Virus record (IMG/VR): IMGVR_UViG_3300030098_004691
Span: 1-38,135 of that record
Strand: one strand, 5' to 3'
Source of the DNA: a virus
Length of the DNA stretch: 38,135 nt
The notes under the pieces: model-generated
Seen by the model: only the letters and a program-made list of their open reading frames with translations
Told to the model about the DNA's origin: nothing
Database searches by the model: none
Position numbers and translations under genes: made by a program
Shown here: piece after piece, positions 23,746-38,135 of the stretch
Layout of the letters: the number at the start of each line of letters is the position of its first letter
Position numbering within the stretch: position 1 is the first letter of the stretch

Positions 23746-23795
23746 TGGTGGCCAGAGGTGGAATCGAACCACCGACACACGGATTTTCAGTCCGT
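23746..23795 (-). other. attP: attP core: 3' half of a tRNA-Phe(GAA) gene
   Basis: Read on the - strand, these 50 bases give the anticodon arm (5-bp stem ACGGA/TCCGT, loop CTGAAAA, anticodon GAA), a 5-base variable loop, the T arm (stem GGTGG/CCACC, loop TTCGATT), the acceptor 3' strand TCTGGCC, discriminator A and CCA. The D arm and 5' acceptor strand are absent: bases beyond 23795 are unrelated. This is the usual attP layout for integration into a tRNA gene, with the phage fragment restoring the 3' end. The sequence type is that of alphaproteobacterial tRNA-Phe. The integrase gene ends 91 bases away. Confidence 0.88.
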
Positions 23796-23856
23796 TTTTA
23801 TTTTGAATTTCAACAATAATTTCAATCAGATAATCCTGACAGCAATTATAATTAGT

Positions 23857-23885: not shown

Positions 23886-24959
23886 TTAGATCGATACAGC
23901 ATTCACCACTTCATGCAGATCGAAGTCAGATTCATCGATATACTTCCAGGTCATAATCGGTTTCGCATGTCTTAGAATCCGTTGAGCTTCAATAATCCCA
24001 AACCTTTTATAGACCCTCTTTGCCATAGATGCTCTGAAGGCATGGAGTGGCTTCCTTCCAGTGATCCCCAATCTTTTGCATATCCTTCTCAGTACATTCC
24101 CGATGGCACCGACATGGTAATACACCCATCCCCCATCACCATTGTCCAGAAACCACACCTCAGTTTCGTTACGTTGATCCCCTTCTAGAAATGCAGCTAA
24201 TTTTTCTGACATAGGAACCCAGTTCTCAACACCAGTTTTTGGTGTCCATTCATCACCTACAACAATCCAGATTTTTCTAGATGGAATGTCGATGTGTTCT
24301 AGCTTCAGATTCAAAAGTTCACCGGCCCGGATACCAGTCTCAGATAGCATCAATAGAATTCTGATATGATCCTGGATCTTTCTTTCCATGACATATTCTT
24401 CAATCCGTTTGATTTCTTCCGGGGAATAATCTTTGATCTTTTTATCAGGCACCGAAATCTTTTTGAGTTCCAGTTTCGGAATCTCATATTTCATAGATGC
24501 ATAACTGAGGAAGCCCTTGAAGGCTTGTTGGTGTTTGGCAATGGTTGCCGGTGCCAGAAGTTCCATCCCTTTCTGGAAATTCCCCCAGTGGTCCAGGGTT
24601 AATTGCTGAATGGGATGATCATCATTGGCATCCTGGTAATATTCCAATGCAGTCTGATACTCTGACCATGTTGCTGTTTTCTGGGTGTTCCTGACATAGG
24701 TCAACCAGTCGGTTGATACCTTGGAAATCATGGACACTTGATTGGCAGATTCCTCTTTTTTCTGATCGATCAACCTCTGAAGATAGTCAGCAATCTGATC
24801 TTCCCTTCTTTTTCTACCGGCTGCTGTGTGTGTGGCATCCTTGATGCTGCAAAGCGTAACCGGTTTAGTCCTAATCCCTTTCCGGTATTCCTTGAATTTA
24901 TAGAAATTTCCATGGATGGCTAATCCAAGGATGCCATGCATTCTTGATCGGCTACGCAT
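23886..24959 (-). CDS. int: Tyrosine-family site-specific integrase
   Basis: This 357-residue recombinase carries out integration and, with a directionality factor, excision at attP. The N-terminal part has a basic DNA-binding start, then a SAM-like core-binding domain (~80-165). The catalytic domain shows R211 in 'ETGIRAGELLNLKL', K241, 'HAFR' H306 and R309, H331 in 'LRHAK' and the nucleophile Y340 in 'TWKYID'. Length and residues are complete, so the enzyme is expected to be active. GAGG six bases before ATG serves as SD. Its start overlaps the end of the upstream gene by eight bases, placing it in the repressor operon. Confidence 0.93.
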   Translation of the reverse strand: MRSRSRMHGILGLAIHGNFYKFKEYRKGIRTKPVTLCSIKDATHTAAGRKRREDQIADYLQRLIDQKKEESANQVSMISKVSTDWLTYVRNTQKTATWSEYQTALEYYQDANDDHPIQQLTLDHWGNFQKGMELLAPATIAKHQQAFKGFLSYASMKYEIPKLELKKISVPDKKIKDYSPEEIKRIEEYVMERKIQDHIRILLMLSETGIRAGELLNLKLEHIDIPSRKIWIVVGDEWTPKTGVENWVPMSEKLAAFLEGDQRNETEVWFLDNGDGGWVYYHVGAIGNVLRRICKRLGITGRKPLHAFRASMAKRVYKRFGIIEAQRILRHAKPIMTWKYIDESDFDLHEVVNAVSI

Positions 24960-31159: not shown

Positions 31160-32532
31160 AATACTTGAGTGTCTGTTCAGGAATCGAAGCAGCAACAAGA
31201 GCATTTGAACCACTAGGTTGGATACCCATTGGATTTTCAGAGATCGAAGTATTCCCAAGTGCAGTCCTGAAACACCACTATTCCGAAACACCAAACTTTG
31301 GAGATATGTCGAACTATGAATCATGGAACTTCACAAGACCTGGACCCGAATCAGATGACTTTTTACTTTGCGGAGGAACACCATGTCAATCCTTCTCAGT
31401 CTCAGGACTCAGAAAAGGACTCAGTGATGAACGGGGAAACCTCACACTCACATTCGTCAAGCTTGCAGACTTCTTCAACCCGGACTGGATCATCTGGGAA
31501 AACGTACCGGGAGTCCTCAGTTCAAAAGACAACGCATTTGGATGCTTTCTGGCAGGACTTTGCGGAGAGAGTGAACCCTACGTTCCACTCAAAAAATGGA
31601 CAAAGTCGGGTGTGGTGTCTGGACCCAAAAGAACCGTTGCCTGGAGGGTTCAGGATGCTCAATACCATGGAGTGGCCCAACGCAGACGGAGGGTCTTTGT
31701 TGTCGCTGTCCCAGGTACTGATAACTGGGAATGTGCCCAAGCATTATTTCCTGTCGGAGAAGGCATGTTCTGGGATACTCCGAAGAGCAGAGAAACGGCA
31801 AAAGAAACTCCCGGAGATGCTGGAAAAAGCACTCAAGGAAGTAGTGGAGAAAGCAAATCCATGATTGACATAGACCCTGCAGGATCATTGTGTGCCAGAT
31901 CACCGGGATACAGTGTCCAGGATTTTACGGAAGGACATATGGTCTGCATGGCAACCGGTCAGACAAATGCTGAGATTCTGGATAACCATTCACCGACACT
32001 GAACACCATCGGAGAACAACCGATCATTGCTTGGGAAAATCATCCTCAAGATTCACGGGTCAAGGAAATGGGTGATGTCTGCAGCTCCATTACTGCGAAG
32101 TATGGAACCGGTGGTGGAAATGTACCATTGATCAGTTTTAAATCAAACATGGGTTCATTTGTCGGTGAACAGGATGGTATTAGTCCGACCCTGATGACTG
32201 ATGCACCTAATGCTGTTGCATTTAATACTACTGGGGGGTTTCAAGTAACAGAGAACAATGTGACACCAACTTTGGACACATCTGCTGGCAAAGGTGGACA
32301 TCAACAATACGGAGTCCGACAAGGAATGATGGTCCGAAGACTGATGCCTGAAGAATGTGAACTACTGCAGGGATTTCCGATGGGATACACAAGAATCCCA
32401 TGGAGAAACAAAGACCCGAAGGATTGTCCTGATGGACCTAGATACAAGGCTTTAGGAAACAGCATGGCAGTTCCATGCATGAGATTCATTGGTGAAAGAA
32501 TTCAAATGATCAAGGATCAGCATGGCCGGTAG
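31156..32532 (+). CDS. DNA (cytosine-5) methyltransferase
   Basis: This 458-residue protein adds a methyl group to cytosine C5 in DNA using S-adenosylmethionine, likely shielding phage DNA from restriction. Motif I is 'LSVCSGIEAA' (4-13), motif IV 'GGTPCQSF' with catalytic C77, motif VI 'WENVPG' (114-119), motif VIII 'QRRRRVF' (175-181) and motif X 'ALGNSMAVPCM' (~434-444). The long segment between VIII and IX/X (185-400) holds the target-recognition region with repeated 'SPTL.T'-like units. The start is TTG 31156 with a GGGGGG tract upstream, coupled to the previous stop. Confidence 0.92.
   Translation: MKYLSVCSGIEAATRAFEPLGWIPIGFSEIEVFPSAVLKHHYSETPNFGDMSNYESWNFTRPGPESDDFLLCGGTPCQSFSVSGLRKGLSDERGNLTLTFVKLADFFNPDWIIWENVPGVLSSKDNAFGCFLAGLCGESEPYVPLKKWTKSGVVSGPKRTVAWRVQDAQYHGVAQRRRRVFVVAVPGTDNWECAQALFPVGEGMFWDTPKSRETAKETPGDAGKSTQGSSGESKSMIDIDPAGSLCARSPGYSVQDFTEGHMVCMATGQTNAEILDNHSPTLNTIGEQPIIAWENHPQDSRVKEMGDVCSSITAKYGTGGGNVPLISFKSNMGSFVGEQDGISPTLMTDAPNAVAFNTTGGFQVTENNVTPTLDTSAGKGGHQQYGVRQGMMVRRLMPEECELLQGFPMGYTRIPWRNKDPKDCPDGPRYKALGNSMAVPCMRFIGERIQMIKDQHGR
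31298..31864 (+). CDS. Overlapping reading frame inside the methyltransferase gene
   Basis: A 188-codon frame lies wholly within the methyltransferase gene in another frame. Its C-terminal half reads like a known phage protein type: 'WPNADGGSLLSLSQVLITGN', 'VPKHYFLSEKACSGILRRAE', then 'KRQKKLPEMLEKAL'. I recall many phage sequences with 'SLSxVLExxxVPxxYxLSxKACxGILRRAEKRGxxLP'. The N-terminal half is low-complexity Ser/His/Thr. Either the gene is dual-coding, or the family in databases is itself the shadow of a conserved methyltransferase segment. No SD is evident at 31298. Confidence 0.4.
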   Translation: MEICRTMNHGTSQDLDPNQMTFYFAEEHHVNPSQSQDSEKDSVMNGETSHSHSSSLQTSSTRTGSSGKTYRESSVQKTTHLDAFWQDFAERVNPTFHSKNGQSRVWCLDPKEPLPGGFRMLNTMEWPNADGGSLLSLSQVLITGNVPKHYFLSEKACSGILRRAEKRQKKLPEMLEKALKEVVEKANP

Positions 32533-33046
32533 ACCAGTCAGAAAAGCAAGGCTTGCAAGACAGGCCAGGATCTTTGCAGACCCAGAATTCTGGGACCGAT
32601 TATTCGATGAGTATCTGAATGTCGGGAACATGAAGAAGTCTGTTGAGACAGCAGCCAAGGATGCAAATGTTTCATATCACAGTCTGATGAAAGAAATCAG
32701 TACGAAACCTGATCTCAGAAAACGATGGGATGATCTAAGAGTCATGCTTGCAGAAAAGCAGATCGATGACATCAACGAAACCATGAACAAACTGGAACAT
32801 GGACTGATCGATCCTAGTGCCGGGAAGACCATCATCAACACCAAACAATGGCTTGCTGAGAAGTATGGACCACAAGTCTATGGTCAGAAGACCCAGATTG
32901 ATATGAAAGTCACTGACACCAATGCAGAGCATCTCAAGGCACTGCAGGATTTAATGGACAGAAAGGCAATTGATATAACACCAGAACCAAAACGATTGCC
33001 TGGAAATGACGGAGAAACTTTACCGACTGGAACTGAATTGGAATGA
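32522..33046 (+). CDS. terS: Terminase small subunit
   Basis: This 174-residue protein recognises phage DNA and starts packaging with the large subunit. The N-terminus is very basic (AGRPVRKARLARQARIF), followed by an HTH-like part ('SVETAAKDANVSYHSLMKEI', ~40-59) and a central helical region. The segment 'TKQWLAEKYGPQVYGQKTQI' with the 'WLxEKxxPxxYGxK' motif is a hallmark of phage small terminases. The tail is flexible and acidic. It overlaps the methyltransferase by 11 bases and is separated from terL by about 3.3 kb, which is unusual. Confidence 0.75.
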   Translation: MAGRPVRKARLARQARIFADPEFWDRLFDEYLNVGNMKKSVETAAKDANVSYHSLMKEISTKPDLRKRWDDLRVMLAEKQIDDINETMNKLEHGLIDPSAGKTIINTKQWLAEKYGPQVYGQKTQIDMKVTDTNAEHLKALQDLMDRKAIDITPEPKRLPGNDGETLPTGTELE

Positions 33047-33956: not shown

Positions 33957-34126
33957 AAGATGATGACTGGGTCGATGCCATCGAAAGGAAGAAGAACGAA
34001 CAATGCAGCCATGAGCAAACCAGAACATCACTTGAGAAAGGGATTCTAATGGAGTGGTGTGAGAAGTGTGGGAAGATCCTTCAAGAGGTCGGGTACGATG
34101 GCAAAATGAGGTTTGATCTGGAATAA
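33953..34126 (+). CDS. Small Cys-containing protein (57 residues)
   Basis: The frame from ATG 33953, overlapping the previous stop by ATGA, gives 57 residues: MKDDDWVDAIERKKNEQCSH, then 'LMEWCEKCGKILQEVGYDGK'. C18/H20 and WCEKCG could bind zinc. It is acidic at the start and basic in the middle. It lies immediately upstream of the transporter-like gene. Confidence 0.55.
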   Translation: MKDDDWVDAIERKKNEQCSHEQTRTSLEKGILMEWCEKCGKILQEVGYDGKMRFDLE

Positions 34127-34127
34127 G

Positions 34128-34571
34128 ATGCATCCTGCAATAACAACATTAAGTGGTCTGGTTTTGTTTTATGTTGGACTAAAACTGTTCTCAGGTGGCA
34201 TGAAATCCATGGGGAATATTGAACACCTGGAAGCATTCATTGGGAATCCTTTATGGATGTTTTTGGGGGGTGTTGTCATGACTCTTTTATGGCAATCATC
34301 ATCACTCAGCACCACTGCAATTGTTGCTCTGGTTGCATCAGGATTGAAACTTGAGATGGCTATTCCAGCACTTCTTGGAGCAAATTTAGGGACCACTGGT
34401 ACCATCTGGATTGCTTCATTCTTTGTCAGTGGATCTGGTCATTCGATTGGGATGCCTGAAGGCCCAGTAAAACAGATTGCTATAGTTCATACCGGGGCAA
34501 ACCTGATGATGGCATTAGCATTGTTGCCGTTCAGTGGAGTCATTGCTAGATGGCTACAGAGGTTCGGTTAA
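34128..34571 (+). CDS. Half-length Na+/phosphate-cotransporter-like membrane protein
   Basis: This is a 147-residue protein from ATG 34128 (TTG 34113 adds five residues). It looks like one repeat of the Na/Pi cotransporter II (NptA, Na_Pi_cotrans) domain: 'LVLFYVGLKLFSGGMKSM' (11-28), the hallmark 'WQSSSLSTTAIVALVASG' (55-72), 'AIPALLGANLGTTGTIWIA' (78-96) and 'IAIVHTGANLMMALALLPF' (118-135). Full transporters have two such inverted repeats, so this would need to dimerise or to modify a host carrier. Four hydrophobic regions are visible. It is a likely auxiliary metabolic gene acting in the host membrane. Confidence 0.72.
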   Translation: MHPAITTLSGLVLFYVGLKLFSGGMKSMGNIEHLEAFIGNPLWMFLGGVVMTLLWQSSSLSTTAIVALVASGLKLEMAIPALLGANLGTTGTIWIASFFVSGSGHSIGMPEGPVKQIAIVHTGANLMMALALLPFSGVIARWLQRFG

Positions 34572-34951: not shown

Positions 34952-34960
34952 TGCTATGAT
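34952..34960 (+). promoter_or_regulatory. Extended -10 promoter candidate
   Basis: TGCTATGAT (TG-n-TATGAT) fits an extended -10 element and resembles TGCTACAAT before the portal. No good -35 is visible 17 bp upstream. A transcript starting near 34967 would include the whole structured region. Confidence 0.4.
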
Positions 34961-35009
34961 CGAAGTGTTATCAATGGGTTGGGAGTATTGACATACGGAT
35001 AGATGATCC

Positions 35010-35075
35010 GGGGGTCTTCCAAATATGCTGGGCAAGCGACAGTATCAGCATATGCCGGGTGACCGGCAGACCCCC
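35010..35075 (+). ncRNA. Three-way-junction structured RNA candidate (leader or small RNA)
   Basis: Three perfect helices nest in 66 bases. P1 is GGGGGTCT (35010-35017) with AGACCCCC (35068-35075). P2 is ATATGCTG (35023-35030) with CAGCATAT (35046-35053) and a 15-base loop. P3 is GCCGG (35054-35058) with CCGGC (35063-35067) around a GNRA-type loop GTGA. P2, P3 and P1 abut with no unpaired bases except five (TCCAA) between P1 and P2, a compact one-sided junction. No known riboswitch or ribozyme consensus is recognised. It could be a cis-regulator of 35139 or a free phage RNA. Confidence 0.55.
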
Positions 35076-35138
35076 CCCCGGTGTTAGGAAATGGGGGGTG
35101 CCCACTGGCCTACCCCACACACACCAAAGAAAGGCAAT

Positions 35139-35348
35139 ATGGATACCTATGAAAAAATCATGATTGGCAGAAAAATCAGTTTTGAAGTTTCAACCGAAGA
35201 AAATGACTGGGACAGAAAGTTCACCAAGAGGGTCCAGGCCAAGGTCCGTGAATCCCAGAATGGCATCATCATGGCCACTGATATTGATGAACCAGATCAT
35301 CTTTACACTCTGACCTATGACCCCAAATTCGTTACCTTGGAAGCCTGA
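35139..35348 (+). CDS. Small hypothetical protein downstream of the structured leader
   Basis: This is a 69-residue protein starting MDTYEKIMIGRKISFEVSTE, with mostly beta-type spacing ('VQAKVRESQNGIIMATDI', 'HLYTLTYDP'). The start is set by AAAGAAAGGCAAT immediately before ATG 35139; the frame upstream to 35091 runs into the G-run of the leader. If the three-way-junction RNA is a cis element, this is the gene it controls. No family is recognised. Confidence 0.65.
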   Translation: MDTYEKIMIGRKISFEVSTEENDWDRKFTKRVQAKVRESQNGIIMATDIDEPDHLYTLTYDPKFVTLEA

Positions 35349-36016: not shown

Positions 36017-36300
36017 TCAAAAAAATTATTCTTATTTTGTTGATTGCCACCCCGGCATTTGCAGTTCCATATTCTGGAACCTATCCGACCATCCAGATCA
36101 GATCTTTGTGGAGTCATTGTTTTAATGGCTTAACCATTGTCAATGGTGTCACCCCATCAGAAGAACATGCCTATACTTGTGATTGCATCCTGGATAAAAC
36201 TAGGGTCCGGTATCCTTATCAGGTTTTATTGGAAACCGATAATCGTACTGAGTTATTCCGGCTTATGTACATGGAATGTATTGGATTAGACCCGATTTAA
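36013..36300 (+). CDS. Secreted small Cys protein
   Basis: This 95-residue protein has a clear signal peptide: MIKK, hydrophobic ILILLIATPAFA, and a cleavage site after AFA at about residue 17. The mature ~78-residue part holds C34 (SHCFNG), C-D-C (TCDCILDKTRVRYPY) and C90, so two disulfides are possible in the periplasm. I recall similar 'CDCVxDxxR' proteins in marine phages and alphaproteobacteria. The stop overlaps the terL start by one base (TAATG), so a periplasmic protein is translationally linked to the packaging motor. Confidence 0.7.
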   Translation: MIKKIILILLIATPAFAVPYSGTYPTIQIRSLWSHCFNGLTIVNGVTPSEEHAYTCDCILDKTRVRYPYQVLLETDNRTELFRLMYMECIGLDPI

Positions 36301-37724
36301 TGTCAGATTCAACCTTTGTTGACTTTATTGGTCGATACAAGAATCGGCCTGTTGAGTTTGTCCAAGATGTTTTAGGACAGACCCCGGATAAATGGCAGAA
36401 AACCTTAATGGAAGCAGCCATTCCGAAAAATGATTTCAATCCTGATTCCGGGCACCGATTATGTGCAGCAAAGTCCGGTCATGGTGTCGGAAAATCCACA
36501 TGTGCAGCCTGGATTGCCATCCATAATATTGTTTGTTATTACCCTCAAAAAACAGTTCTGACAGCACCAACATCATCCCAGTTGTTTGATGCATTGTTTG
36601 CAGAACTGAAATCTCAGATGATCCGGTTACCCCCGGTTCTCAAGAATCTTTTTGAGACTTATTCAGACCGGGTCACTCTCAAATCAGACCCATCTGGATC
36701 TTTTATTTCATGCCGTACCAGTCGGAAGGAAACCCCGGAAAGTTTGCAGGGAATCCATTCAGACAGGGTTCTGTTACTGGTTGATGAAGCCAGTTCGATT
36801 GATCAGTCAGTGATCGATGCAGCAGGGGGTTCCTTGTCGGCTGCTGATGCAACATTGGTGTGTCTTGGAAACCCAACCCGGCCTGAAGGATTCTTTTTTG
36901 ATGCATTCGGAAGATTATCTGATAAATGGTTCACTCTCACTGTTTCATGTGAAGATTCAGTCAGGGTCAGTTCTGATTATATCAAGGAAATGGAAGATCG
37001 ATATGGTCGGGATTCCAACACCTTCCGAATCAGGGTTCTTGGTGAATTCCCGGAAACTGCAGATGACACTCTGATTTCCAATGCCTTAGTTGAAAGTGCA
37101 GTAGGTCGGGATGTTGAACCCAGTGAAGGTCCAATCATCTGGGGTCTGGACATTGCCAGATTCGGATCTGATCGATCAGCACTCTGTAAACGGCAAGGAA
37201 ACACTATCCTGGAACCAATCAAGTCCTGGGCAAAACTGGACACCATGCAGCTAATGGGTGCCATTTCCAGGGAATATGACAAGGCATGTGAAGAACTGAT
37301 GCAGCCTAAAGCAATCATGTGTGATGTCATCGGAATCGGGGCTGCAATTGTGGACCGGGGTTTAGAGTTATCTTTGCCGGTCCAGGGCATCAACACCGGT
37401 GAATCTGCATCCCTTAGTGGACTCTATAAGAATTTAAGGGCTGAATTGTGGCATGAAGCAAAGGATTGGTTTGAGAAACGGCACTGCAAGATCCCCAGAG
37501 ACAACAGGCTGATGTTTGAGCTTTGCAGCCCAAGATACACCTATGACAGCACCGGAAGAATAAAATTGGAATCTAAGGATGAAATGCGGAAAAGACTGGG
37601 CCACAGAGGTAGCCCAGACTTTGCAGACAGTTTTGTGCTGACCTTCAGCAACACTGCCGGGATTATTTCAGGGATGTCTCAACCCTGGAATCAACCTCTG
37701 AAACGGAATGTTTCGATTGTTTGA
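36300..37724 (+). CDS. terL: Terminase large subunit
   Basis: This is a 474-residue protein from ATG 36300 (TAATG overlap; an upstream ATG at 36276 adds eight residues). This packaging motor has an N-terminal ATPase with Walker A 'SGHGVGKST' (59-67) and Walker B 'LLLVDEA' (158-164), then the coupling motif 'LVCLGNPT' (~186-193). The C-terminal nuclease has 'GLDIARFGSDRSAL' (D284), 'MCDVIGIGAAI' (D342) and 'SPDFADSF' near 446. All catalytic positions expected are present. The 3' end overlaps the reverse-strand HTH gene by 62 bases. Confidence 0.92.
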   Translation: MSDSTFVDFIGRYKNRPVEFVQDVLGQTPDKWQKTLMEAAIPKNDFNPDSGHRLCAAKSGHGVGKSTCAAWIAIHNIVCYYPQKTVLTAPTSSQLFDALFAELKSQMIRLPPVLKNLFETYSDRVTLKSDPSGSFISCRTSRKETPESLQGIHSDRVLLLVDEASSIDQSVIDAAGGSLSAADATLVCLGNPTRPEGFFFDAFGRLSDKWFTLTVSCEDSVRVSSDYIKEMEDRYGRDSNTFRIRVLGEFPETADDTLISNALVESAVGRDVEPSEGPIIWGLDIARFGSDRSALCKRQGNTILEPIKSWAKLDTMQLMGAISREYDKACEELMQPKAIMCDVIGIGAAIVDRGLELSLPVQGINTGESASLSGLYKNLRAELWHEAKDWFEKRHCKIPRDNRLMFELCSPRYTYDSTGRIKLESKDEMRKRLGHRGSPDFADSFVLTFSNTAGIISGMSQPWNQPLKRNVSIV

Positions 37725-37983: not shown

Positions 37984-38135
37984 AATGATTTATGTTGGGG
38001 TCCATAAGACTGGAACATTTTATCCGGGAAAACATGGACTGTTTCACAATCCTGGCATTTAATTTCACCGGAACAATCATCCTGGGGTGTCAACATAAAA
38101 GATCCATCTTCAGTAACTAATTCACCATCACATTA
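37980..38135 (-). CDS. Small zinc-ribbon protein, 3' part (gene crosses the circular junction)
   Basis: This is the same gene as 1-156. From the junction (base 38036 continuing from base 1) it runs ETV-HVFPDKMFQSYGPQHKSL and stops at TGA 37982-37980, overlapping the HTH start by ATGA. Bases 38037-38135 repeat the window start. Confidence 0.7.
38037..38134. repeat. Terminal direct repeat, right copy
   Basis: Identical to bases 1-98. The final base 38135 is A where the left copy has G at 99, possibly a read-end error or a real variant. Confidence 0.9.

Follow-up and report, generated by a model that had tools for sequence, protein, structure and literature searches.

The window, that is, the whole stretch of 38,135 nt analysed here, has ends that are identical over 97 bases (2-98 = 38038-38134), and the compared sequences L009 and L011 cross the junction between them, from which we infer a circularly assembled genome of ~38.0 kb. 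It encodes an integrase, an Erf-like annealing protein, exonuclease VIII, the small (TerS) and large (TerL) terminase subunits, a portal, a scaffold and a major head protein, and judged by its sequence the virus is temperate podophage-like. As the assembly is circular, TerL continues toward the portal gene across the junction of the ends. Between TerS and TerL, as the sequence-only reading had stated, lies a predicted RNA three-way junction. The 66-base frame of that reading captured the fold and was nevertheless too small: conservation extends further, and the fold makes up the 5' portion of the whole element. TerL lies downstream of this element in the same orientation, ~1.2 kb away in the window with three small genes in between. 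The features of the locus are as follows:

32522-33046, + strand: terminase small subunit TerS (phrog_1482)
34952-34960, + strand: extended -10 promoter candidate TGCTATGAT, by consensus only
34988-35125, + strand: whole conserved element, starting with TTGACATACGGAT and ending with CACACACACC; beyond these borders the flanks of the window and L002 diverge on both sides and cannot be aligned
34997-35009, + strand: P0 hairpin, GGAU-N5-AUCC; the stem is invariant and the loop varies (AGAUG, AAUAG, AAAUG)
35010-35075, + strand: three-way junction, composed of P1, P2 and P3
35010-35017/35068-35075, + strand: P1, 8 bp
35023-35030/35046-35053, + strand: P2, 8 bp, extended inside its loop in the minimum free energy (MFE) structure
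35054-35058/35063-35067, + strand: P3, 5 bp, loop GUGA
35071-35079, + strand: C9 run, C6-C9 in deep relatives; its first five C also belong to P1
35093-35098, + strand: G6 run of the core, GGGGGcgg in freshwater relatives
35099-35125, + strand: block after the G run, TGCCCACTGGCCTACCCCACACACACC
35139-35348, + strand: small gene of 69 aa, adjoining the element in the window
36276-37724, + strand: terminase large subunit TerL (phrog_2, PF03237)

The conserved element begins ~30 nt 3' of the extended -10 candidate, which had been pointed out before and is indeed promoter-like by consensus; a site of the type TGnTATSAT is similarly placed in L001, L024 and L002. A promoter-like ACATAATG block was observed 50-226 nt upstream of the C-run/G-run core in 47 of 53 relatives. 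Near this block, a repeated TTATCCACA resembling a DnaA box occurs before TerL in freshwater relatives such as L112, L133 and L171; around the element of the window no such repeats were seen.

Other parts of the genome yielded separate observations. The region between TerS and TerL contains an unusual phage cargo gene (34113-34571), whose 152-aa product has a Na+/Pi cotransporter domain (PF02690). Rfam recognized a type II hammerhead ribozyme above its gathering score (826-894, - strand, 43.7 bits), whose position upstream of the portal gene is conserved; L008 has it with 51.9 bits and L009 with 48.6 bits. A tRNA-like match (23755-23811, - strand) adjoins the integrase gene (23886-24959, - strand), in L005 too, and probably represents the copy of a host tRNA end carried in attP.

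Fold and conservation of the three-way junction

The helices of 8, 8 and 5 bp and the sole joining strand, UCCAA (35018-35022), lie where they had been placed by the earlier reading. We calculated an MFE of -34.7 kcal/mol for the junction, compared to a mean of -20.7 kcal/mol for shuffled sequences (z = -4.39); none of 200 shuffles folds as well, so that the fold passed the comparison with shuffled sequence, and the centroid equals the MFE structure. No ORF of at least 50 aa extends over 35010-35075 on either strand and no T run was found 3' of the junction, which agrees with the previous statements that no ORF explains the fold and that it is not an intrinsic terminator.

The close relatives L001/L005, L007, L002, L009, L010 and L024 carry the element, in five variants beside that of the window and one truncated copy. 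In a pair count over six sequences 99.3% of the cells are paired; three pairs of P2 are changed on both sides, while P1 and P0 vary neither in sequence nor in pairing, and the covariation score was reached by 1 of 500 shuffles. The three one-sided changes all give G-U pairs on the + strand, equivalent to A-C mismatches on the other strand, which favours a fold of the + strand and hence an RNA. With about three independent lineages, the pair conservation provides modest evidence for an RNA fold. The homologs thus offered the anticipated compensatory changes in P2 with an invariant P1, and Rfam covariance models did not match the element at either gathering or permissive thresholds. The GNRA-type tetraloop described earlier for P3 holds for the window (GUGA), but the loop is not of this type in L009 and L010 (GUCA) or in L002 (CGUAG). 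For the isolated RNA of L002 the three-way junction (-26.5 kcal/mol) is not the most stable structure, another fold (-29.5 kcal/mol) being favoured by 3 kcal/mol. We regard the three-way fold as confirmed, both in being real and in being conserved.

Searching genome contigs with a DNA pattern for P1 gave 80 stretches, none of them with the flanking conserved parts, and blastn of the element against phages and plasmids gave no match. A covariance model of the junction matched the close clade only, and the junction is therefore not deeply conserved. Our best reading is that the junction and the P0 hairpin form a 5' flank special to this phage clade.

The same data bear on whether the locus could be a double-stranded DNA site, an inverted repeat or cruciform bound by TerS or another protein, with the RNA fold as a by-product of DNA symmetry. 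The - strand of the junction region is nearly as stable as the + strand (-31.1 kcal/mol, z = -3.1), and the invariant sequences of P1 and P0 are consistent with such a site. However, the P2 sequence changes with its pairing kept, and the preference for G-U pairs on the + strand points away from DNA; we consider a DNA site unlikely.

The sequence-only reading had also suggested a cis element of riboswitch type that would serve the gene at 35139. A ligand-binding riboswitch would fit a structured 5' leader, and a switch is conceivable in that the 3' G run is able to pair with the C run used by P1. In L002, however, a GNAT acetyltransferase gene (PF13508, 4542-4973) separates the element from the homolog of the gene at 35139, and in L009 a GNAT-like gene is found at the same position (about 1160-1590) with the element retained, so that the element is linked to more than one neighbouring gene family; L113 possibly has a similar GNAT-type insertion. 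Because the element stays where these genes intervene, it belongs with the TerL operon rather than with any single small gene, and the riboswitch proposal, for which the gene at 35139 would have to come next, is barely plausible. The alternative C-run/G-run pairing is not kept either, since the G run is interrupted in L009 and L010 (GGGAGGG); switching of the C run between its two partners, drawn by eye, was rejected on these sequences. A pseudoknot between the loop of the G-run hairpin and (U/C)ACCC, likewise found by eye, was considered as a candidate.

The phi29 pRNA is a discrete small RNA with a three-way junction that acts on the packaging motor, and by analogy the element might act in trans as a free RNA in packaging, as had been loosely suggested. 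It shares with the pRNA the three-way junction and the packaging context, and the discrete promoter-like site together with a compact junction beside packaging genes would suit a free RNA. On the other hand, no terminator follows the element, no Rfam model matches it, and the context of TerS, TerL and an integrase is not that of a terminal-protein phage but of another packaging system; the RNA here is, moreover, a prediction. We found no supporting evidence for this proposal and regard it as very improbable.

The C-run/G-run core upstream of TerL

The 3' half of the element consists of C9, 13 nt, G6, about 12 nt and ACCCCACACACACC. Considered alone as an RNA it has no excess stability (z = +1.46) and was rejected as an RNA structure. 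We defined the core pattern as a run of C6-C9, 6-24 nt and GGGG on the same strand upstream of TerL, and used a TerL profile search, which gave 80 loci. The pattern was observed in 41 of 67 TerL upstream regions compared to 0.73 expected from dinucleotide shuffles, whereas in the controls it occurred in 3 of 67 when the opposite strand was read and in 18 of 1006 windows taken elsewhere in these loci; some loci scored as lacking the pattern carry a core further upstream (L140). The core also precedes TerL in phiM5 and C72C1. An alignment of 54 distinct cores reads GA-C7-9 ... GGGGGcgg ctgatg..gcacc.aacacctaccga. A profile built from five relatives whose TerL is 61-68% identical, with the clade of the window left out, had its best match at 35074-35127 (E = 5.6e-4), and a profile of the freshwater group matched neither the window nor phiM5. 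The strict pattern was absent from Alphaproteobacteria prophages with 45-52% TerL identity in the sampled genomes and from prophages in the sampled genomes of the order Burkholderiales. Since deep relatives share the core and the covariance model of the junction is limited to the close clade, the core is old and the junction local.

Genome ends and a candidate terminase cut site

Sinorhizobium phage phiM5 (MF074189.1), the only relative with annotated termini, has direct terminal repeats at 1-357 and 43648-44005. The repeat ends between GGGGGCAGCGCATATATC and TGCACCC, 13 nt after the G run of the core and 35 nt before TerL. phiM5 resembles the window in the arrangement GA-C9 ... GGGGG ... TGCACCC directly before TerL, and its TerL is 46% identical; it differs in having no three-way junction, and its similarity to the window site outside the runs is not significant. 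As the freshwater-group profile matches neither of the two, the link to phiM5 is one of position and architecture and not of significant sequence similarity. LUZ24 was tried as a parallel and discarded because early genes, not TerL, follow its terminal repeat.

Contig ends point to the same place. A scan with the left half of the core found a C run in 70 contigs. Six of the 70, some of them closely related to one another, have their right end at most 31 nt after the core (0.26 expected, P = 3.7e-7), and 12 have it within 165 nt after the core (1.4 expected); the left ends of the same 70 contigs show no excess at the core. Four contig termini, the ends of L294, L282 and L007 (at 35110) and the start of L162, lie 9-13 nt past the G run, matching the end of the phiM5 repeat. 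As a sign of a cut site this clustering is suggestive; difficult sequence also breaks assemblies, and GC-rich hairpins or the downstream C-rich tract may have caused these ends.

Taken together, we favour the interpretation, with a probability of roughly 55%, that the element is the terminase cut or packaging-initiation site of a temperate podophage, located in the transcribed leader of the TerL operon. The earlier idea of a packaging link would then have been close, in the form of a cut site whose 3' neighbour matches the phiM5 repeat end rather than of a packaging RNA. Transferred from the relatives, the cut would fall ~9-13 nt 3' of the G run, at about 35107-35111, where the terminase would cleave concatemers and create one terminus of a direct terminal repeat like that in the phiM5 annotation. 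The 3' half (C9 ... G6 ... ACACACC) would be the part common to distant relatives, and the junction with P0 a clade-specific flank, which, given the tolerance for G-U pairs on the + strand, most likely forms in the leader RNA as it is transcribed. The folded RNA could influence pausing of the polymerase or recruit the terminase. The fold and the cut site may nevertheless serve different functions, as the 3' half has no excess RNA stability, and the proposal that the nascent junction couples transcription to packaging, the leader pausing RNA polymerase or recruiting terminase at the cut site, is a doubtful one. Also against a cut site, TerL resembles that of headful phages as well (P22-like, P1 PacB), the Alphaproteobacteria prophages are without the strict pattern, and the connection to phiM5 lacks profile support.

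At the concatemer junction of T7, which serves as its packaging site, a specific terminase cut gives direct terminal repeats and the junction is transcribed across. The proposed cut site would resemble it in these respects, but sequence and terminase are unrelated and the T7 site lies far from TerL.

The main rival to the cut site is a cis-acting leader RNA of the late TerL operon with no packaging role, in which the junction and the C/G hairpins would bind RNA polymerase or a phage factor, leading to readthrough of terminators located downstream, as with HK022 put, or to regulation of the whole operon. The putRNA of HK022 is a structured nascent RNA of about 70 nt with two stem-loops downstream of the early promoters PL and PR (PMC9378689). 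Our element, known from sequence alone, is similar in length and in following soon after a phage promoter candidate, but it folds as a three-way junction instead of two stem-loops and stands in the leader of the TerL operon. A leader RNA is consistent with the promoter-like site ~30 nt upstream, the ACATAATG block of the relatives, the G-U tolerance and the fact that the adjoining gene varies while TerL always follows. It leaves unexplained, however, the phiM5 repeat end and the contig ends at the core, its most widely shared part has no excess stability as RNA, and the junction is absent outside the close clade. We judge such a leader, put-like or other, to be possible though not likely.

If the cut-site interpretation is true, the genome ends of a large group of uncultured podophages are marked by C7-9 ... 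G5-6 ... CACC before TerL. It would then be predictable from metagenomes how these phages package their DNA and where its physical ends lie, as the motif can be read directly from the assembled DNA. Moreover, one leader would hold a terminase cut site next to a conserved RNA fold, and a link between transcription and packaging would become testable.
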